From the NCBI GenBank assembly GCA_018821365.1, contig JAHJML010000095.1, forward strand, positions 1 through 33,939: a stretch of DNA of 33,939 nucleotides. The letters run 5' to 3'. Position numbers and translations under genes: made by a program. Positions 8,955 through 33,939 of this stretch are shown here, in pieces. Origin of the DNA: Actinomycetota bacterium. GTDB lineage: Bacteria; Actinomycetota; Acidimicrobiia; Spongiisociales; UBA11373. Numbering within the stretch: position 1 is the first letter of the stretch; each line of letters opens with the position of its first letter. The notes under the pieces were generated by a model that was not told the origin of the DNA, did not search any database, and saw only the letters and a list, made by a program, of their open reading frames with translations.

Positions 8955-10109
8955 CTAGCCCTTGACCGCACCGGCCGTGAGGCCCCGCACGAAGTAGCGC
9001 TGCAGGCTGAAGAACACCGCCACCGGCAACGCCATCGAGATGAAGGCCGCCGCCGGGAGCAGATGCTCGAACTGCCCGTACTGGCCGCTCAGTTCGGCGA
9101 GCGCCTGGGTGACCACCGACACGTCCGGGGTCCCGCCCAGGAACACCAGGGCCACCAGCAGGTCGTTCCACACCCAGAGGAACTGGAAGATGGCAAACGA
9201 CGCCAGGGCCGGCACCGACAGCGGCACGATCAGCCTCACGAAGATCTGGAAGTGGGTGGCCCCGTCGATCTGGGCCGACTCGATCAACGACGACGGCAGC
9301 GACCCGATGTAGTTCCGCAACAGGTACACCGCCAGCGGCAGGCCGAACCCGGTGTGAGCCAGCCACACCGCCATGTAGGTGCCGTTGATCGGATGGGGGA
9401 AGGGGGTCGACATCCCGAAGAACTCACCCGAGGTGTACAACCTCAACAGCGGGATCAGCGCCATCTGCAGCGGCACCACCAGCAGGCCGACCACTGCGAC
9501 GAACAGCAGATACCGGCCCTTGAACTCCATCCAGGAGAAGGCGTAGGCGGCGAACGCCGCCACCGTGATCGGGATCACCGTCGAAGGGATCGCCACCGCC
9601 AGGCTGTTCAGAAAGGCGTTGCCGAAGTTGCGGGCGCCGAGCACCGTCGTGTAGTGGTCGAAGGTCCATTGATCCTTCCACCCCTCGGTGAAGGGCGACT
9701 GGTTGAAGATCGTCCACCACCCCTCGGCCTCAACGACGGCCTTGGTCCGGAACGACGACACCAGCAGTCCGACGGTCGGGATCAGCCACAGCACCACGAT
9801 CACCACCAGCGACACCTTCACCATCGGGTGAGAGATCATGCGTCGCAGGAAGCCCTTGCCGCCGACGCCCCAGGCGATCGCCCCCGTCACCAGCAGGGCC
9901 GCGGTCAGCGCCAGCGCCGAAGGCAGCGCAAACCGGAAGAGCACGAAGGCGATCCCTCCCAGGATCACCGGCAGGAACCCGGCGGCGAACCAGATCTCCT
10001 CGTCGGTGGAGCCGCGGCTCACGCCCATTCGTTTGGTCGCCATGCCGGCGATCGCCGCCACCGCCAGCCAGGCGATGAAGATCGCCGCCAGTATGAGAAG
10101 GTCGGTCAT
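8955..10109 (-). CDS. Carbohydrate ABC transporter permease, MalG-type
   Basis: A 384-residue inner-membrane permease of the MalG family. The C-terminal ~280 residues are a standard six-helix domain: it starts near VSLVVIVVLWLIPTVGLLVSSF and has the EAA loop ESAQIDGATHFQIFVRLIVP. The first ~95 residues are an extension with about three extra hydrophobic helices, which ordinary MalG proteins (about 275-300 residues) lack. Its start overlaps the stop of the MalF-type permease (ATGA). It works with that permease and the lipoprotein at 11338-12603 to import a sugar, most likely an oligosaccharide or alpha-glucoside. Confidence 0.9.
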   Translation of the reverse strand: MTDLLILAAIFIAWLAVAAIAGMATKRMGVSRGSTDEEIWFAAGFLPVILGGIAFVLFRFALPSALALTAALLVTGAIAWGVGGKGFLRRMISHPMVKVSLVVIVVLWLIPTVGLLVSSFRTKAVVEAEGWWTIFNQSPFTEGWKDQWTFDHYTTVLGARNFGNAFLNSLAVAIPSTVIPITVAAFAAYAFSWMEFKGRYLLFVAVVGLLVVPLQMALIPLLRLYTSGEFFGMSTPFPHPINGTYMAVWLAHTGFGLPLAVYLLRNYIGSLPSSLIESAQIDGATHFQIFVRLIVPLSVPALASFAIFQFLWVWNDLLVALVFLGGTPDVSVVTQALAELSGQYGQFEHLLPAAAFISMALPVAVFFSLQRYFVRGLTAGAVKG

Positions 10110-11254
10110 CGGATGGCCTCCTCAGCCCGGAACCGCTTCACGTTGACCCACATCACCGGGACGATCGCTAAGAACAGCACGACGGCGATGGCCGCGCCCC
10201 TCCCGTTGTGATCGTTCCGGAAGAACCATCGGATCATTTGCTCGGCGATCACTTCGGTGCCGCTCTCCCCATTGGTCATGACGAACACGATGTCGAAGAC
10301 CTTGAGCACCGTGATGATCATGGTGGTCATCACCACCACCACCGTGGAGAGGATCGACGGCAGCACCACCCGCCAGAACACCTGGATCTCGGTGGCCCCA
10401 TCGATGCGGGCCGCCTCCAGGATGTCGTCGGGGACCGACTTGATGGCGGCAGACAGGATCACCATGGCGAACCCGGTCTGCATCCAGATCATGATCACCA
10501 TCAGCAACAGGTTGTTCCACGGCTCCTGGGAGAGCCAGGCGATCGGTTCGTCGCCGAAGCCCTGCACGATGCCGTTGAGGAGGCCGGTCTGGGCGCCGAA
10601 CACCTTGTACTTGTAGATGAGACCGAACACCACCGAGGCGCCCACGAACGAGACCGCCATCGGCAGGAAGATCAGCGACTTGGCAAACGCCTCACCCCGC
10701 CGCAGCTTGTCGGCGAGCACCGCGATCCCGAGGCCGAGGCCTACCGAAGCCGACGGCACCACCAGGATCCAGATGATCGTGTTGCGGATCGCCCGCAGCA
10801 TCCCGTCGTCGGTGAAGACGAACCCGTAGTTCTCCAAGCCGACGAACTTGTCGGAGTTGCCGTCGAGGAACGACAGCCAGATCGTGTTGAGGGCCGGGTA
10901 CAGCAGGAAGATGCTCAGGATCACCAGGGCCGGGCCCACGAACACCCAGGGGCGAACCGATTCTCTCCACTCCTCGGGCATCCGGTTGACGGCGTAGTCC
11001 ATGGCCCAGTAGAGGGCGAAGATGCCGCCGACGCCCACCCCCAGAGCCACGAGGACGATGACGCCGCGATTCACATCGGCCTGGCGCAGCCACTCGAAGG
11101 AGAGCCACAGGATGATGAACGCAACGATCGGCACCGCCACCGCCGACAGGAACCGCAAGACGGTCAGGCCGAGCCGCATCAGCGGCGATCGATCGTCCTC
11201 GGGCAGTGGCGGGTCTTCCTCGACGACCTCTATGAGCTTGTCCCGCTCGGTCAC
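10106..11254 (-). CDS. Carbohydrate ABC transporter permease, MalF-type
   Basis: A 382-residue permease. The core (about 100-382) begins RPWVFVGPALVILSIFLLYP and carries the EAA loop EAARIDGATEIQVFWRVVLP, both typical of sugar-importer MalF/AglF proteins. The first ~95 residues add an acidic cytoplasmic start and two extra hydrophobic helices, paralleling the extension on its partner. The start is GTG (complement 11252-11254) with an excellent GGGAGG site 7 nt upstream. It is separated from the binding-protein gene by a strong stem-loop, and overlaps the next permease by four bases. Confidence 0.91.
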   Translation of the reverse strand: MTERDKLIEVVEEDPPLPEDDRSPLMRLGLTVLRFLSAVAVPIVAFIILWLSFEWLRQADVNRGVIVLVALGVGVGGIFALYWAMDYAVNRMPEEWRESVRPWVFVGPALVILSIFLLYPALNTIWLSFLDGNSDKFVGLENYGFVFTDDGMLRAIRNTIIWILVVPSASVGLGLGIAVLADKLRRGEAFAKSLIFLPMAVSFVGASVVFGLIYKYKVFGAQTGLLNGIVQGFGDEPIAWLSQEPWNNLLLMVIMIWMQTGFAMVILSAAIKSVPDDILEAARIDGATEIQVFWRVVLPSILSTVVVVMTTMIITVLKVFDIVFVMTNGESGTEVIAEQMIRWFFRNDHNGRGAAIAVVLFLAIVPVMWVNVKRFRAEEAIR

Positions 11255-11285
11255 GTGACCACCTCCCGGGGGAGAGACTAGACGA

Positions 11286-11316
11286 GAGAAGGGCGGCCCT
11301 GCGGGCCGCCCTTCTC
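11286..11316 (-). terminator. Stem-loop between binding-protein and permease genes (partial terminator or mRNA stabiliser)
   Basis: A perfect 14-bp stem (arms 11286-11299 and 11303-11316, GAGAAGGGCGGCCC and complement) with a 3-nt loop lies 21 nt after the binding-protein stop and about 30 nt before the MalF-type start. Stem-loops at this place in importer operons commonly reduce readthrough or protect the upstream message, so that binding protein is made in excess. The following bases are only weakly T-rich, so partial termination is the better guess. Confidence 0.75.
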
Positions 11317-11337
11317 AGATCGTTGTCGAAGCTCGAT

Positions 11338-12603
11338 CTACGGCCAGGAGGCCTCGATCTCGGCTGCGACGGTGGCGGCATCCTTGCCGCGCATCCACTC
11401 GTTCATCCCTGTCCAGAACGAGCCCGAACCGACTGCCGAAGGCATCAGGTCGGAGGCGTCGAACCGGGCCCCGCCTGCGGCGAGGGCATCGAGGATCGAC
11501 TGGGCGATCGTCGCCACGATCGGGTCGCCGTAGCAGGCGCCGGTCGTGTTGATGTTCGGAGAGATGCGCTGCACGCCTTCCTGCTGACCCATGGCGCACT
11601 GGACATCCGTCGAGATGAGCTTCCCGACGAAGTCACGAACCTCAGGGCTGTCCGTGAAGACTGCCGCGAGCTCACCGGCGATCAGGGAGCCCTTGACTCC
11701 GGGATCGATGTCCGGGAATGCGAACAGGTCGATGTCCTCACCGACAACCGTTCCCTCGGGGAAGAAGTTGACGATGAAGCTCGCCTGGCGGTGCATCAGG
11801 CACCCTGGTTCCTCGGCGACCATCGGGTCCGGAGCATCACGGAAGTCGATGTCCGGGATGGCGGTGGCGCCACCGAGGCTGTAGCCCCACACGCTCTCGA
11901 ACAGATCCATCGCCCGCAACACCGTGGGGTCGTTGAAGGGGATCTCATGGGAGACCCACTGGTCGTAGACGTCGGCGCCGGCGGTCCGGAGCATGATGTC
12001 TTCCATCCAGTCGGTGGCAGGCCAACCGGTGGCGGCCTCGGACCCGGTGCCGATGCACAACGGGGTCGCGTAGCCGTCGGTGACCATCTGATCCATCAGG
12101 GCGATCCACTCGGTCCAGGTGGTCGGGGTGGTGTAGCCCGCAGTATCGAAGACGGGCTTGTTGTACCAAACCAGGCTCTTCGAGTTCACGTTGGTGGGGA
12201 TGCCGTAGTGCTTGCCCTCGTACTCGCCGAGCGAGAGGAGGTACGAGCCGAACGTCGCCTCGAGGTCCGCCAGCGAGAAGCCGAGGTCCTCCAGGGCAAT
12301 GGCATCACCGGATGCAGCCATCTCGACGACCGAGCCTGGCTGCGGGTACATGGCGATGTCGGGCGGGTTGCCGCCATCGACCCGAATCTTGATCTGCTCT
12401 TCGAAGGACTCCGAGCCCTCGTAGAAGGCGGTGTAGTCGGCATCCGGCTCGATCATGTCGTCGATCACCGCATTCACAGCGTCGGCCTCAATGCTGCTGA
12501 ACGCCCCGAACACGGAGATCTCCACACCGCTGTCGTCGTCGCCGCATGCCGCGACGATCAGCGCAAAGGCGGTGAGGGGAACGAGCCATTTCATTCTTCT
12601 CAT
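11338..12603 (-). CDS. Carbohydrate ABC transporter substrate-binding lipoprotein (alpha-glucoside type)
   Basis: A 421-residue extracellular solute-binding protein of the sugar-binding family 1. From the chosen ATG (12601-12603) it opens MRRMKWLVPLTAFALIVAACGDDD, a clean lipoprotein signal with lipidated Cys. An upstream in-frame ATG at 12612 abuts the GGGAGGA ribosome site and is less likely. The body has the family landmarks: EEQIKIRVDGGNPPDIAMYP, KHYGIPTNVNSKSLVWYNK, TPTTWTEWIALMDQM and GWPATDWMEDIMLR. The last resembles AglE-type alpha-glucoside binders, but the exact sugar is not proven. It is the first gene of the importer operon. No ATPase gene accompanies it, so a shared MsmK/UgpC-like ATPase elsewhere is expected. 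Confidence 0.9.
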   Translation of the reverse strand: MRRMKWLVPLTAFALIVAACGDDDSGVEISVFGAFSSIEADAVNAVIDDMIEPDADYTAFYEGSESFEEQIKIRVDGGNPPDIAMYPQPGSVVEMAASGDAIALEDLGFSLADLEATFGSYLLSLGEYEGKHYGIPTNVNSKSLVWYNKPVFDTAGYTTPTTWTEWIALMDQMVTDGYATPLCIGTGSEAATGWPATDWMEDIMLRTAGADVYDQWVSHEIPFNDPTVLRAMDLFESVWGYSLGGATAIPDIDFRDAPDPMVAEEPGCLMHRQASFIVNFFPEGTVVGEDIDLFAFPDIDPGVKGSLIAGELAAVFTDSPEVRDFVGKLISTDVQCAMGQQEGVQRISPNINTTGACYGDPIVATIAQSILDALAAGGARFDASDLMPSAVGSGSFWTGMNEWMRGKDAATVAAEIEASWP

Positions 12604-12687
12604 ATGAGACATTCCTCCCGGTGGTTGTGTCTCTCGTGGAGGGAACCCACCCAAACGGGCGGAGCCGTGCCCACGATCACCTAGAGC

Positions 12688-28696: not shown

Positions 28697-29932
28697 CTAG
28701 GGCTCGGGACCGATCTGGACGATGCGCTCCACCATCGCGTACGCCAGTTCGGCCGGGTGGCGTTCGCCGGGCCGCAGCAGGTTCGCCATCGTCCGCAGCA
28801 CCCACTCCATCAGCGACCGGGACCGCAGCCCGGTCCGGGTCAGCGTCCGCATCACCCTCGGCCTCCCGATCGCCCTCACGAACGCCCGGGCGGTCCGGTA
28901 GTAGAGGCCGTAGGTGTCGTCGAGTTCGCTGCGGTACCCCTGCAGCAGGGTCAGGTCACCTGCCGCCAGGGCGGCGTGGACGTGGCCCGCCGCCATCCGC
29001 CCCGTCTCGTAGGCGTAGGCGATCCCCTCCCCGTTGAAGGGGTTGACGGCGCCGGCGGCATCGCCGACCAGCACCCAGTTGGGCCCCACCGTGGGACCCA
29101 CCGACAACGCCATGGGAAGCTTGCCGCCGCGCGGGTTGCTGGTGGCGGTCCCGGGCGAGAGTCCCCACGACGTGGGTGCGGTCGCCTCCAGCGACCCCAT
29201 CAGCATCGAGGTGTTGACCTCCTTCCAGCGGTGGAAGGTCGACAGCACTCCCACCCCGACGTTCACCTCTCCGTCGCCGAGGGGGAAGATCCACCCGTAG
29301 CCGGGGACGTTGGCCCCCGCCGCATCGGTGAGGCTGAGGTGGCTCTCGATGTAGTCGTCGTCGGAGCGGGGGGATGCGTAGTAGCCGCGGGCGGCCAGTC
29401 CGAAGGGCCGGTCGAAGTCGCGGGAGGCGCCGAGGCTCCTCCCGAAGCGGGACAGCGAACCGTCGGCCACCACCACCGCCGTCGGGCGGACGATCTCGGT
29501 CTCGCCGCCGGCGGTGAGTTCGACGGCCGCCAGTCGCCCGTTCTCGACGATCGGGCGGGCCTCGGTGCCGGTGCGCACCACCGCCCCCTGCTTCTCGGCG
29601 AGGCGGACCACCTCGTGGTCGAGGTCGATGCGGCGGATCACACCGCCCCAGTCGGGGTAGAGGGGGTGGTCCGGCCAGTCGAGTTCGATCATCCGGTCCC
29701 CGGCGTAGGCCCGCAACCCGCCGACCCGGTGGAATTCGGGCACCGAGAAGTCGAACCCCATCAGCATCAGTTCGTAGATGGAGCGGGGGGTGAGGCCGTC
29801 GCCGCAGGTCTTCTCGCGGGGGAACTCCTTCTTCTCCACCAGCATCACGTCGTGGCCCCGTTCGGCCAGGTGATAGGCAGCGGCGGCCCCACCGGGGCCG
29901 CCTCCGACGACGAGGACTTCGGGGTTCGGCAT
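28697..29932 (-). CDS. Geranylgeranyl reductase family FAD-dependent protein, probable menaquinone reductase
   Basis: A 411-residue flavoprotein. The N-terminal dinucleotide fold is VLVVGGGPGGAAAAYHLAERG. EKTCGDGLTPRS is the family's Cys-Gly-Asp-Gly motif. The second FAD motif is WVLVGDAAGAVNPFNGEGIAYA. Actinobacterial MenJ enzymes of this family reduce one isoprene double bond of the menaquinone side chain, and the gene directly precedes the nuo operon, whose electron acceptor would be that quinone. Plant-type ChlP activity is unlikely without any other pigment gene. The specific reaction is therefore an inference from family and context. A promoter may lie at 29979-30008; TAATCT (complement 29941-29946) would instead give an almost leaderless message. 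Confidence 0.85.
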   Translation of the reverse strand: MPNPEVLVVGGGPGGAAAAYHLAERGHDVMLVEKKEFPREKTCGDGLTPRSIYELMLMGFDFSVPEFHRVGGLRAYAGDRMIELDWPDHPLYPDWGGVIRRIDLDHEVVRLAEKQGAVVRTGTEARPIVENGRLAAVELTAGGETEIVRPTAVVVADGSLSRFGRSLGASRDFDRPFGLAARGYYASPRSDDDYIESHLSLTDAAGANVPGYGWIFPLGDGEVNVGVGVLSTFHRWKEVNTSMLMGSLEATAPTSWGLSPGTATSNPRGGKLPMALSVGPTVGPNWVLVGDAAGAVNPFNGEGIAYAYETGRMAAGHVHAALAAGDLTLLQGYRSELDDTYGLYYRTARAFVRAIGRPRVMRTLTRTGLRSRSLMEWVLRTMANLLRPGERHPAELAYAMVERIVQIGPEP

Positions 29933-30153
29933 GCGGCGTGAGATTAGGAGCGGACGGGGGGTTAGGGGTAGGCGGACGGGTATGCGACCGCCGGGGGACT
30001 CCTGTCAGAACCTCGCCGGTATCGACTTCACGTTTACCAGCCTCAGTCTGTGGGCTGACCTCCGACCGGGTCCCCCGCCCGGGGCCCCCGCATCGAACGC
30101 CCGCAGGCAGCCTCGCTTATAGTGCTGGCTTAGACGATCAAGGGGGGTCAACT
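29933..30153. promoter_or_regulatory. Divergent control region, MenJ-like gene and cobalamin cassette
   Basis: No gene is seen. For the minus-strand gene, CTGACA (complement 30003-30008) and CATACC (complement 29979-29984) are separated by 18 nt. For the plus-strand cassette, TATAGT at 30118-30123 is a good -10 with only a weak -35, and an AAGGGGGGT ribosome site lies about 7 nt before the GTG at 30154. G-rich repeated words (GCGGACGGG twice, GTTAGGGGTAGG) occur at 29950-29980. Confidence 0.35.
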
Positions 30154-31239
30154 GTGATCGCCATTCTGTGGGCCGGTCATGCCGGCCGGGCGATGGCCGG
30201 CGATTTGGCTCTGCGTGGGGCGACAGTGGCCCTGTGGAACCGCACTGCCTCCCACATCGCCGTGCTCCGTGCTCGGGGCGGTGTCGAAGTCGAGGGAGAG
30301 GTGGAGGGGTTCGGCCGCATCTCCCTCATCACCGATGACCTAGAACAGGTGCTGCGCAGCGCTCACCTGGTGATGGTCTGCGTCCCAGCCTTCGCCCACC
30401 GAGACCTGGCAGAGTGCTGCGCCCCCTACCTATGCGACCGCCAGATTGTCGTGCTCAACCCCGGCCGTACCTTCGGCGCTTTGGAGTTCAGCCGAGGCCT
30501 GCAGGCCTCGGGGTGCACGACTGGCGTTCTCGTTGCTGAGGCGGCCACCAACCTGATGACGGCCCGCTCGACTGGTCCGGCGCAGTCGCACATTGCTCGC
30601 ATCAAGCACGCCGTCCCGGTGGCCGCTCTCCGGGCCGAGAGCACGCCCGAGGTGGTGACCGCCCTGGGCGAGTGGTACCCGCAGTTCACCCCCGCCGTCA
30701 ACACGCTCGAAACCTCCTTTGCAAACGTGGGGGCGGTTATCAACCCGGCGATCACCCTGCTCAACGCCGCCCGCATCGAGAACGACCAGGGACGCTTCGA
30801 GTTCTACATGGACGGCATCAGCCCACGGGTCGCCGAGGTGCTCGCCGCCGTGGACCGGGAACGCCAGGCGGTGGCCGCCCTGCTCGGAGTCCAGGTGCCG
30901 AGTCTCGTGGAGTGGCTGGCCAGCGCCTACCGGGCCACCGGGAGTGACCTTTTCGAAGCGGTGCGGGCCAACGTGGGCTACCGGGGCATCACCGCTCCCT
31001 CCACCCTGGAGCACCGCTACATCGTGGAAGACGTGCCGATGAGCCTGGTGCCCATCGCATCGGCCGGCAAGGCCTTCGGCCTCAACACCCGGGCTATCGA
31101 GTCGCTCATCCTCCTGGCCGGCCTGATCATGGACACCAACTACTGGACCCGGGGCCGCACCCTCGAAACTCTGGGCATGGCCGGCCTCAGCCCGGGGGAG
31201 ATCCGCCGTATCGCCGAGACCGGGGTCTGGGATGGGTGA
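30154..31239 (+). CDS. NAD(P)-dependent octopine/opine dehydrogenase family protein
   Basis: A 361-residue protein. Residues 1-150 are a Rossmann domain (VIAILWAGHAGRAMAGDLAL, then beta2 VALWNR and VMVCVPAFAHRD). Residues about 160-361 are the all-helical octopine/nopaline dehydrogenase domain, including NVGAVINPAITLLNAARIE and TLEHRYIVEDVPMSLVPIAS. Enzymes of this class reduce an imine formed between an amino acid and a keto acid, or the reverse. The first Gly of the GxGxxG motif is Trp6; the other two (Gly8, Gly11) remain. I cannot place the catalytic His with confidence. The GTG start is fixed by a strong ribosome site. It overlaps the next gene by 8 nt, so the two probably act in one pathway. 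The substrate is unknown. Confidence 0.78.
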   Translation: MIAILWAGHAGRAMAGDLALRGATVALWNRTASHIAVLRARGGVEVEGEVEGFGRISLITDDLEQVLRSAHLVMVCVPAFAHRDLAECCAPYLCDRQIVVLNPGRTFGALEFSRGLQASGCTTGVLVAEAATNLMTARSTGPAQSHIARIKHAVPVAALRAESTPEVVTALGEWYPQFTPAVNTLETSFANVGAVINPAITLLNAARIENDQGRFEFYMDGISPRVAEVLAAVDRERQAVAALLGVQVPSLVEWLASAYRATGSDLFEAVRANVGYRGITAPSTLEHRYIVEDVPMSLVPIASAGKAFGLNTRAIESLILLAGLIMDTNYWTRGRTLETLGMAGLSPGEIRRIAETGVWDG

Positions 31240-32848
31240 GGGACTCCTCGTGGTGGGCGCTGCCCTGGGGGACTGCGTCCACACCGCCGGGGTACTCAAC
31301 TTCTTGGCTGTGGCCCGCAGGGCCGGATGGCACACCGAGTTCCTGGGGCCGGCCGTGCGGGTCGACCAGGTAGTGCAGGCAGCAACCCGGCACCCGGACC
31401 TGCTGGCCCTGTCGTACCGACTCACCCCCGAAGCGGCGGAGCGCCTCTTCGATCAACTCCGATCCCGCCTTGCCGACGCCGGTCTGGAGGCACAGCGCCT
31501 CGTGTTCGGCGGCACCCCAGTCACCGCCGAGATAGCGACCCGCAGCGGGCTCTTCGAAGCGGTGTTCGGGGCACCTGGCGGTCTGACGGCCGAGGAGTAC
31601 CTCGCCGGCGGGACACCGGCCACCGCCCAGCAGACGTGGGCTCAGACCTTGGCGGAGCGATGCCATCAGAAGGCGCCCCGGCCCCTCATCCGGCACCACT
31701 TCGGACTTCCCGACCTCGAAGCCACCGTGGCCGGCATCGAGCGCATCGCCGCCGCCGGGGTGGTGGACGTGGTGTCCCTGGGGCCCGATCAGAACTTCCA
31801 GGAGCACGCCTTCCACCCCGAGCGCATGGACCCCGCCCAGGACGGCGCCGGCGGGGTGCCCGTCCGTTCCCTTGATGGTCTGCGCCGTCTGTACGCCGCC
31901 ACCCGACAGGGCAACTACCCACTGATGCGGTGCTACTCGGGCACCAACGACCAGGTGGCCCTCGCCGAGGTGCTGCACCAGACCATTCGCAACGCCTGGT
32001 GTGCGGTGCCCGTGTTCTGGTACTCCGAACTCGACGGGCGCTCAGACCGTTCCCTTGAAGCCGCAATCTCCGAACAGGGAGAACTCGTCGCCTGGTGCGC
32101 CGTCCATTCGGTGCCGGTGGAGCGCAACGACCAGAACCAATGGGGCCTTCGGCACGCCTCCGATGTAGTGCAGGTGGCCACCGCTGCCCTCGCCGCCGGC
32201 CTCACTATCGCCGCCGGGGTCACCACCTACGTTCTTCAGATGATGCTCAACAACCCGCCGGGCACCTCCCCCGCCATGGACGTCGCCAAGATGAGCGCCA
32301 TGGAAGCCATGGTGAGGGGTGCCGCCGGCGAAGACGTCACCGTGCTGCGAGAACTGCGGGCCGGCCTCTTCTCCATGCCTGTCGACGAGGATCGGGCCCG
32401 GGGGCAGTTAGCGTCGGCGACCCGCACCGCCATGCTGCTCCGACCCCACATCCTCCACGTGGTCGGGCACACCGAAGCACACCATGCCGCCGGTCCTGAC
32501 GAACTCATCTCATCCTGCACCCTCGTTCACCAGGTGATCGACGACGCCCTGCTCGGCCTTCCCGATGCCCTCGCCGACCGTCGGGTGGCAGGCCGCCGAG
32601 TCCACCTCATGGATGAGGCCGGCTACCTGCTCAACGCCATCGAAGACCGCTTCCCCGGCACGCTCGCCGGCGACCCCGACGCTCTCGCTGCAGCGGTACG
32701 CTCCGGCTACCTCGATGCTCCCTACCTGGCCGGGAGCGGGGTCGCCCCCGGCCGCACGGCTACCGTCGTCGACGGCGGGTGCGACGCCGTCGACCCCGAC
32801 ACCGGCAAGACCCTCACCGAAAAGGAACGCCTGGCTCTCTTCGCCTGA
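31232..32848 (+). CDS. Cobalamin-binding-domain protein with glutamate-mutase-E-like C-terminal part
   Basis: A 538-residue protein. Residues 1-~130 look like a flavodoxin-fold B12-binding domain: LLVVGAALGDCVHTAGVLNF, then FLGPAV, LLALSYRLTP and LVFGGTP as later strands. The His expected to coordinate cobalt is His17, in Asp-x2-His-x2-Gly, one residue longer than the usual Asp-x-His-x2-Gly. Residues ~150-500 resemble a TIM barrel of the methylaspartate (glutamate) mutase E type. The tail DAPYLAGSGVAPGRTATVVDGG, VDPDTGKTLTEKERL also recalls such enzymes. It may be a radical B12 mutase with the B12 domain fused at the N-terminus. No PLP site is seen. It is translationally coupled to the opine-dehydrogenase-like gene. 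Remote homology only; no substrate assigned. Confidence 0.6.
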   Translation: MGEGLLVVGAALGDCVHTAGVLNFLAVARRAGWHTEFLGPAVRVDQVVQAATRHPDLLALSYRLTPEAAERLFDQLRSRLADAGLEAQRLVFGGTPVTAEIATRSGLFEAVFGAPGGLTAEEYLAGGTPATAQQTWAQTLAERCHQKAPRPLIRHHFGLPDLEATVAGIERIAAAGVVDVVSLGPDQNFQEHAFHPERMDPAQDGAGGVPVRSLDGLRRLYAATRQGNYPLMRCYSGTNDQVALAEVLHQTIRNAWCAVPVFWYSELDGRSDRSLEAAISEQGELVAWCAVHSVPVERNDQNQWGLRHASDVVQVATAALAAGLTIAAGVTTYVLQMMLNNPPGTSPAMDVAKMSAMEAMVRGAAGEDVTVLRELRAGLFSMPVDEDRARGQLASATRTAMLLRPHILHVVGHTEAHHAAGPDELISSCTLVHQVIDDALLGLPDALADRRVAGRRVHLMDEAGYLLNAIEDRFPGTLAGDPDALAAAVRSGYLDAPYLAGSGVAPGRTATVVDGGCDAVDPDTGKTLTEKERLALFA

Positions 32849-32984: not shown

Positions 32985-33939
32985 TCACTCCGTGCTCGCC
33001 GCCGGGTCGGTCAGGCCGCAGTCGGCCAGCGCGGTGTCGAGGTCCTCGCCGCCGAAGCGGACCCGTTCGTAGAGGACCACGGCGCGCACCTGTTCCTCGG
33101 TCAGGGTGGCGCCGAAGGCCGGCATCACCGCCCCGCTCCCGCCGACCGGCTTGCCGGTGGCCCCGTAGGTGGCCTCGGGCCACCCGGTGCTCCCCAACGA
33201 GACCCAGTCGACATGGGCCTGGCACTGGCCCTCGGGGAACGTCTCCAGCAGCGCCCCACCCACGAACGCCGGGAAGTTGCCGGCCCCTCCCCCGTTGTCG
33301 CCGTGGCAGGCGGCACACGCCGTGAACTCTGCCTGGCCCATGGCATAGAAGTCGATGGTCTCCACTCCGTAGGGGGTGGCGTCGCAGTTGACGGCCACCC
33401 CGGTGACGGGATCGACGGCCAGGCTCCCGGCGTCGCCGCAGTTGGGCCCGTTGGGGAGGAACAGCGCATAGAGGACGGCGATGGTGGGGATCAGCACGAA
33501 GGCGGCCGCCAGCCAGCGGGGGATCGCCGCGGCGGCCGCCGCCTCCTCCTCCGACTCGAACCGCGCGGGCGCAGGTTGGGGAGCGGGTTCGAGGGCGGGT
33601 TCCGGTGACGGCGCCGCCGCGCCCTCGGTGGCGGCCGCAGCCGGGGTGGCGGTCAGGGGAATCGGGGCCGGCGTCGCAGCCGCCGGGGTGGAAGCGGGGG
33701 CGGAAGCCGGGACGGGGGCGGCTGCCGGGGACCCGATCATCTCGGCGAGCACCTCGGCGGCGGAGCGTCCCGAGGCGGCGGCCTTGGCCTCCACCGAGCG
33801 CTGCAGCAACTTGGCCGGCATCCCGGCGGCGGCGGAGGCGGCCTGCCAGTCGATCTCACCGTCGGGGCCGATCGCCGGTGCCGGGGCGGCATCGGCCACG
33901 GGAGCCGGGCCCGGAGTCGGGGCGGGTTCCTGGGCGGTG
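32985..33939 (-). CDS. Membrane-anchored cytochrome c (N-terminus beyond the window)
   Basis: The reading frame stays open to the right edge (TAQEPAPTPGPAP upstream), so the gene is probably cut; a GTG at 33899 would give 304 residues. Numbered from it: residues 15-56 form a possible helical motif (EIDWQAASAAAGMPAKLLQ onward); 57-115 is a Pro/Ala/Thr-rich linker; 128-149 is one membrane helix; and 185-304 is a cytochrome c domain with CAACH (195-199) as haem site and Met259 in AVMPAFG as likely axial ligand. Extra cysteines (NCGDAG, NCDATP, GQCQAH, DCGL) may form disulfides. It probably passes electrons from a quinol-oxidising complex to a terminal oxidase on the outer face of the membrane. 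The partner complex lies outside the window. Confidence 0.85.
   Translation of the reverse strand, partial: TAQEPAPTPGPAPVADAAPAPAIGPDGEIDWQAASAAAGMPAKLLQRSVEAKAAASGRSAAEVLAEMIGSPAAAPVPASAPASTPAAATPAPIPLTATPAAAATEGAAAPSPEPALEPAPQPAPARFESEEEAAAAAAIPRWLAAAFVLIPTIAVLYALFLPNGPNCGDAGSLAVDPVTGVAVNCDATPYGVETIDFYAMGQAEFTACAACHGDNGGGAGNFPAFVGGALLETFPEGQCQAHVDWVSLGSTGWPEATYGATGKPVGGSGAVMPAFGATLTEEQVRAVVLYERVRFGGEDLDTALADCGLTDPAASTE

Follow-up and report, generated by a model that had tools for sequence, protein, structure and literature searches.

A conserved gene pair joining an opine dehydrogenase to a B12-mutase-like protein in actinobacteria and Asgard archaea

The DNA analysed here, a stretch of 33,939 nucleotides that we refer to as the window, carries near its end two overlapping, co-directional genes (table 1). 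The first encodes an enzyme of the octopine/opine dehydrogenase family (ODH), and the second a protein (MUT) in which a B12-binding domain precedes a barrel of the glutamate-mutase-E type. In comparisons with close relatives both genes are under strongly purifying selection (dN/dS about 0.11-0.22 for the two, 0.11-0.17 for ODH alone) and both are conserved in archaea at about 40% identity; chance open reading frames can therefore be excluded. An earlier, sequence-only reading of this DNA had described the 8-nt overlap, which is exactly as it claimed, and had remarked that the pair is set between respiratory genes that fail to explain it. This is indeed the case, with a reductase and NADH dehydrogenase genes on one side and a cytochrome-c-like gene on the other; as both neighbours lie on the opposite strand, a joint operon with the respiratory genes is ruled out. 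The promoter candidate of the same reading found no support, as our search near the pair returned 0 sigma-70-like sites. Around the pair we found no terminator and no known RNA family, regulatory RNA or B12 riboswitch. Elsewhere in the window (8955-12654, minus strand) there is an ABC transporter, with two permeases and a bacterial extracellular solute-binding protein, that is unrelated to the pair.

Table 1. Features of the ODH-MUT locus, in window coordinates
Feature	Position	Strand	Basis
Ribosome-binding-site-like AAGGGGGG (candidate), 5' of gene 1 GTG start	30140..30147	+	direct sequence reading
ODH: octopine/opine dehydrogenase-family protein, 361 aa, GTG 30154 to TGA 31239	30154..31239	+	
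ODH codon 6 TGG (Trp); first Gly of GxGxxG in 35/35 relatives	30169..30171	+	
ODH Arg105, invariant (36/36); matches ArODH position 111, where opine dehydrogenases preferring Asp/Glu have Arg for Ala	30466..30468	+	alignment, PMC10787698
ODH Gly193, invariant (36/36); matches ArODH position 198, the other specificity residue, where they have Gly for Asn	30730..30732	+	alignment, PMC10787698
ODH codon 197 AAC (Asn); catalytic His of His-Asp dyad in 35/35 relatives	30742..30744	+	
Gene overlap ODH/MUT, 8 nt	31232..31239	+	
MUT: B12-binding domain fused to glutamate-mutase-E-like TIM barrel, 538 aa, ATG 31232 to TGA 32848	31232..32848	+	
MUT N-terminal B12-binding Rossmann domain, residues about 1-125, motif C/D-x-H17-x-x-G20, S61, G93	31232..31606	+	
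MUT C-terminal barrel, about residues 150-508; runs collinear with glutamate mutase E, with H156, Q190, Y235 and A258 in place of its substrate claw	31679..32755	+	
FAD-dependent reductase, divergent from pair, then NADH dehydrogenase genes	28697-29932	opposite to pair	
Cytochrome-c-like protein, one CxxCH motif, no Pfam match, convergent on pair	32985-33899	opposite to pair	

A scan of genome contigs with MUT gave 14 loci, ten of them actinobacterial (mostly Acidimicrobiia) and four from Heimdallarchaeota-type Asgard archaea, the latter at about 40% identity. An ODH homologue lies directly upstream of MUT in all 14, so that with the window the adjacency is 15/15, and the flanking genes of these loci are common only to close relatives. 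Among 74 fetched neighbourhoods MUT was present in 73 and ODH in 72. Of 345 genomes sampled from the class, a whole-genome search recovered full-length MUT in 10. In one further actinobacterial family, f62, 28 genomes carry it; a sample of 396 yielded no other actinobacterial group. The richest source is the Asgard archaea, where 90 of 227 genomes (about 40% of the sample) have MUT, a few of these being fragments. There, 80 of 92 MUT copies stand on the same strand as an ODH and at most 250 nt from it, and because both gene orders occur (45 ODH-MUT, 35 MUT-ODH) the adjacency has evidently survived a change of order. The non-adjacent copies are mostly explained by contig breaks, the genomes G506 and G507 being those with intervening genes (in G507 an asparagine-synthetase-B-like, or AsnB-like, gene and one other separate ODH from MUT). 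The phylogenies of the two proteins are correlated as well (Mantel r 0.73, 0/999 permutations). The near-universal adjacency that the sequence-only reading had proposed to look for is thus present, and the conserved unit is the ODH-MUT pair, not its neighbourhood. We found no relatives on plasmids and none on viral contigs, and carriage of the pair by either was rejected.

Some of these loci have particularities of their own. In many f62 genomes (loci L104-L112 and L120-L122) the pair is co-directional with its neighbours, having dnaE on one side and, on the other, what resembles a histidine-biosynthesis operon (HisZ/HisS-like, HisG and subsequent genes), and is placed as if it were part of the core genome. 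At L124:10264-15283 and L125 (G507 and G506) the C-terminus of ODH is lengthened by about 140 aa; the two uncharacterised proteins on either side of it are related to each other, and one of them gave weak matches of the PCI-domain and CofD-like kinds. Genes for trimethylamine-methyltransferase-like and B12-methionine-synthase activation-domain proteins flank the pair in an Asgard group (L075:807-7000 in G361, also L076). At L011:7683-9190 the MUT gene is apparently split into two overlapping frames, probably by a frameshift or a sequencing error.

The association of two such families has a precedent. Zhang et al. (2009; BMC Genomics 10:78, PMC2667541) predicted a B12 protein family "always adjacent" to octopine/nopaline dehydrogenase (pfam02317), with 11 published members in Clostridia, Lactobacillales, Chloroflexi and Thermotogae and with asparagine synthase near it in several organisms. 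The present pair fits this family closely, matched by description rather than by sequence: both have a B12-binding-like domain near the N-terminus, a TIM-barrel-like prediction, a pfam02317 neighbour and an asparagine synthase nearby. The adjacency to pfam02317 by which that family was defined is found for MUT with few Asgard exceptions (G506/G507 and contig breaks). Unlike the members of 2009, those described here belong to the Acidimicrobiia, another actinobacterial family and the Asgard archaea, and the D-Ala-D-Ala ligase neighbour of 2009 was not seen at the present loci. The sequence-only reading had seen in the cassette the window's likeliest place for an undescribed pathway; the coupling itself had already been predicted in 2009 (PMC2667541). 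A literature search that covered only a minority of the subscription journals found no later functional assignment of the pair. New here are the members from actinobacteria and Asgard archaea, the assignment of MUT by structure and a class of substrates that can be tested.

The first gene had been read as an octopine-dehydrogenase-family enzyme, and this assignment is secure. ODH matches Pfam Octopine_DH (PF02317) at E 8e-44 (149.7 bits against a cut-off of 30), and it is homologous over its full length to the closest solved structure, N-(1-D-carboxylethyl)-L-norvaline dehydrogenase (1bg6; E 2e-69, profile E 3e-117). A study of metagenomic opine dehydrogenases published in 2024 found that R111 together with G198 confers a preference for L-Asp/L-Glu with pyruvate, and that swapping the residue pair at 111/198 swaps the preference, a double swap leading to L-Asp (PMC10787698). 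The equivalents of R111 and G198 are present in 36/36 aligned mutase-linked ODHs, and a pattern scan of a wider set of 72 ODHs gave no other residues at these positions where the motifs were readable. Seven Asgard ODH paralogues that lack a mutase have A/N, S/N, D/N or N/N instead of R/G. Loci with such paralogues include L168-L173 and L180, the last with the ArODH-like A/N. The cofactor loop of ODH reads N-R-T/S against D-I-D of ArODH, as in the changes of NADPH-preferring enzymes. From the R/G pair and this loop we predict that ODH, probably using NADPH, joins an acidic amino acid to a keto acid. The published R/G enzymes use Asp poorly (KM about 25 mM for mODH-582; PMC10787698), so that the natural substrate may be something other than Asp itself.

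The window's own copy of ODH departs from its relatives at codons 6 and 197. Among the relatives the Gly of the NAD-binding motif and the catalytic His are kept in 35/35, and the Asp of the dyad in 34/35. Both W6 and N197 differ from close relatives by a single G:C to T:A change (GGG to TGG and CAC to AAC, respectively). They point either to an inactivation of recent date or to an erroneous consensus in the metagenome assembly, and this particular copy is possibly inactive or misassembled.

For the second gene, the B12-binding-like domain and the glutamate-mutase-E-like barrel of the sequence-only reading are both upheld. MUT matches the Pfam B12-binding domain at E 4.6e-10, and H17 (the B12-ligand His), G20 and S61 are invariant in its relatives; a B12 site, whose absence would have told against that reading, is present by sequence and by fold. 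At motif position 15 the relatives have C in 38/41 and D in 3/41, so that the canonical DxHxxG usually becomes CxHxxG, and of the GG motif G93 is kept in 35/41 and G94 in only 25/41. By sequence the barrel of the window copy falls below the Pfam glutamate-mutase-E (MutE) cut-off (15.7 vs 26.6 bits); the profile is nonetheless matched at E <= 0.1 by 12 of the 14 first members (best 4.5e-7), and a relative in G054 lies just above the cut-off (29.3 bits). An AlphaFold model built with 42 relatives (pLDDT 92.6) has glutamate mutase E as its top two Foldseek matches (1cb7_B, E 9.8e-16, TM 0.60/0.66), followed by ornithine 4,5-aminomutase, lysine 5,6-aminomutase and the CoA-mutases.

MUT might instead be a corrinoid methyltransferase or a B12-based sensor that is merely linked to ODH. 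Its isolated B12 domain scores well against the corrinoid proteins of methyltransferases, CxHxxG stands in place of the usual DxHxxG, and MTTB-type genes are found near a few loci (L075). The barrel, however, is far closer to glutamate mutase and the aminomutases than to any methyltransferase, many of its polar or charged residues are invariant across 42 sequences, as in an enzyme, and in G353 MUT is adjoined by GlmL, a reactivase; we regard this explanation as very improbable. The GlmL/MutL protein, which serves glutamate and ornithine mutases, was encountered once among 80 genomes, directly beside the cassette of G353 (L071:3894-5306, divergent from MUT). G353 has no recognisable canonical MutE, and this neighbour supports adenosylcobalamin radical chemistry for MUT, although GlmL is absent in 44 of the 45 cassette genomes examined; apart from the MutL of G353, the cassette genomes contain no canonical MutE or MutL elsewhere. 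An adenosyltransferase of the PduO or CobA type accompanies the cassette in 33 of 35 genomes and was not found in the other two, G432 and G505. The fold, the adenosyltransferase occurrence and the GlmL of G353 give indirect support to the view that MUT is, most likely, a radical isomerase dependent on adenosylcobalamin.

Which substrate such an isomerase would accept can be approached through the barrel. In glutamate mutase an arginine claw, R66/R100/R149, holds the substrate carboxylates (PMC10947579). We compared MUT with five genuine GlmE proteins from Actinomycetota, all five of which have the claw. Profile-profile and joint alignments agree in placing the invariant H156, Q190 and Y235 of MUT at R66, R100 and R149; E171 becomes A258, likewise invariant (C257 in one of the two alignments), N123 becomes G207, and E330 is matched by the invariant E415. 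The MUT-GlmE profile similarity is weak (hhalign E 0.005, probability only 7.6%) and the individual residue mappings are accordingly tentative; neither alignment restores the claw. With all the claw residues and E171 replaced, MUT is not a glutamate mutase, and this identity was ruled out. A PLP-dependent aminomutase was rejected too: the B12 domain of OraE has an insertion with a lysine that serves in PLP binding, and since MUT lacks this insertion a PLP-dependent shift of an amino group is unlikely.

The same residues have a bearing on the order of the two reactions, which the sequence-only reading had guessed to be mutase first and dehydrogenase second. In such a scheme MUT would rearrange a carbon skeleton to make an unusual acidic amino acid, branched or beta, that ODH then N-alkylates with pyruvate. 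Glutamate mutase, the nearest fold to MUT, forms 3-methylaspartate, and the poor turnover of Asp by R/G opine dehydrogenases (PMC10787698) suggests that another acidic amino acid is the natural one. The residues that bind the glycyl and carboxylate groups, however, are all replaced, mostly by smaller ones, and, on the low-confidence alignment, a bulkier or N-substituted substrate would fit better. The smaller residues thus hint weakly at room for a bulkier, possibly N-substituted substrate of MUT. We consider the mutase-first order rather unlikely; it is not established, and the pocket leans weakly to the reverse.

A third gene recurs beside the pair. An AsnB-like protein overlaps or follows it at L124, L071 and L080, and L113 and L136 have one at a distance of 1-4 kb; in G432 the AsnB-like gene adjoins a second R/G dehydrogenase. 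The glutaminase Cys2 is missing from every AsnB-like copy with a clear start, and the ligase is therefore probably not glutamine-dependent. Of 45 genomes with the cassette 9 have this subfamily, against 0 of 35 without it, a suggestive difference that ignores kinship and was obtained with a profile in which two of the counted genomes are represented. A beta-lactam synthetase was considered for the third gene. Those enzymes have Tyr in place of the AsnB Glu; Cys2 is missing here as it is there, but the AsnB-type Glu of GEGxDE is kept and this identity is not claimed. Beyond AsnB there was no further recurrent neighbour, no family occurring in more than 3 of 100 neighbours.

B12 mutases of the glutamate-mutase fold group, to which MUT belongs, are mostly catabolic, and NAD(P)-linked opine dehydrogenases are reversible. 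The pair could accordingly work in the opposite sense, ODH oxidatively cleaving a scavenged opine and MUT isomerising the amino acid released so that it can be degraded, in the manner of the methylaspartate or ornithine/lysine aminomutase fermentations. We hold this to be improbable: no recurrent transporter or degradative gene stands beside the pair (MFS transporters occur in a few Asgard loci), and the NADPH-type N-R-T/S loop and the ATP-dependent ligase adjacent in some loci suggest synthesis.

In our judgement the cassette is rather probably a two-enzyme module of an uncharacterised pathway, composed of an AdoCbl mutase and an acidic-amino-acid opine dehydrogenase that would act on consecutive intermediates of one metabolite. 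ODH would form an imine from a keto acid such as pyruvate and an L-amino acid whose side chain carries a negative charge (Asp- or Glu-like); hydride transfer from NADPH would then complete the reductive condensation and, were ODH to act first, yield an acidic opine, for instance N-(1-carboxyethyl)-Asp/Glu. MUT would carry base-off/His-on cobalamin, held by H17 above a barrel of the glutamate-mutase type, for a substrate other than glutamate. Homolysis of the Co-C bond of AdoCbl and abstraction of hydrogen from the bound anionic substrate would bring about a 1,2-rearrangement of the acidic opine, for example to its N-(2-carboxyethyl) isomer. In some lineages the Cys2-less asparagine-synthetase-like ligase would then form an amide. 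Of the two orders we favour ODH first, which taken alone has a chance somewhat short of even; the reverse order is nearly as possible. That MUT is a coenzyme-B12 radical mutase with an opine substrate, leading to a metabolite not yet described and amidated in some lineages, is a possible but still doubtful reading. A compatible solute, a metallophore or part of a cofactor would be candidates for the role of the product.

This B12 enzyme pair has been without a function since its prediction in 2009, and the substrate class, the cofactor-binding fold and the specificity signature now make that function directly testable. The pair occurs in about 40% of the Asgard genomes sampled, and its function would lengthen the still short list of adenosylcobalamin mutases by a new reaction. 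If MUT does rearrange an opine, a large part of the Asgard archaea, along with some bacteria, would make the resulting metabolite.

Each of the three proteins can be set against a known counterpart. The third gene is homologous to asparagine synthetase B over the synthetase domain and shares its GEGxDE motif, but lacks Cys2. D-Ornithine 4,5-aminomutase and D-lysine 5,6-aminomutase are the next-best fold matches of MUT and have a related B12 domain, the difference being the lysine-containing insertion of OraE, which MUT lacks in a profile alignment. Glutamate mutase (GlmE/GlmS, methylaspartate mutase) offers the best barrel match, a Rossmann B12 domain, an equivalent of the retained E330 and, in one lineage, the nearby GlmL reactivase; MUT differs in being one fused chain that begins with the B12 domain, at about 15% identity, in having R66/R100/R149/E171 all replaced, and in that no methylaspartate ammonia-lyase was seen beside it. 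ODH resembles ArODH/CENDH (1bg6) and the metagenomic mODHs over its whole length, with the His-Asp dyad and key Trp conserved in its relatives; the linked ODHs share R111/G198 with the Asp/Glu-preferring mODHs, whereas ArODH has A111/N198. From the opine dehydrogenases in general ODH stands apart in the window copy, which has no catalytic His, and in its genetic coupling to a B12 mutase.
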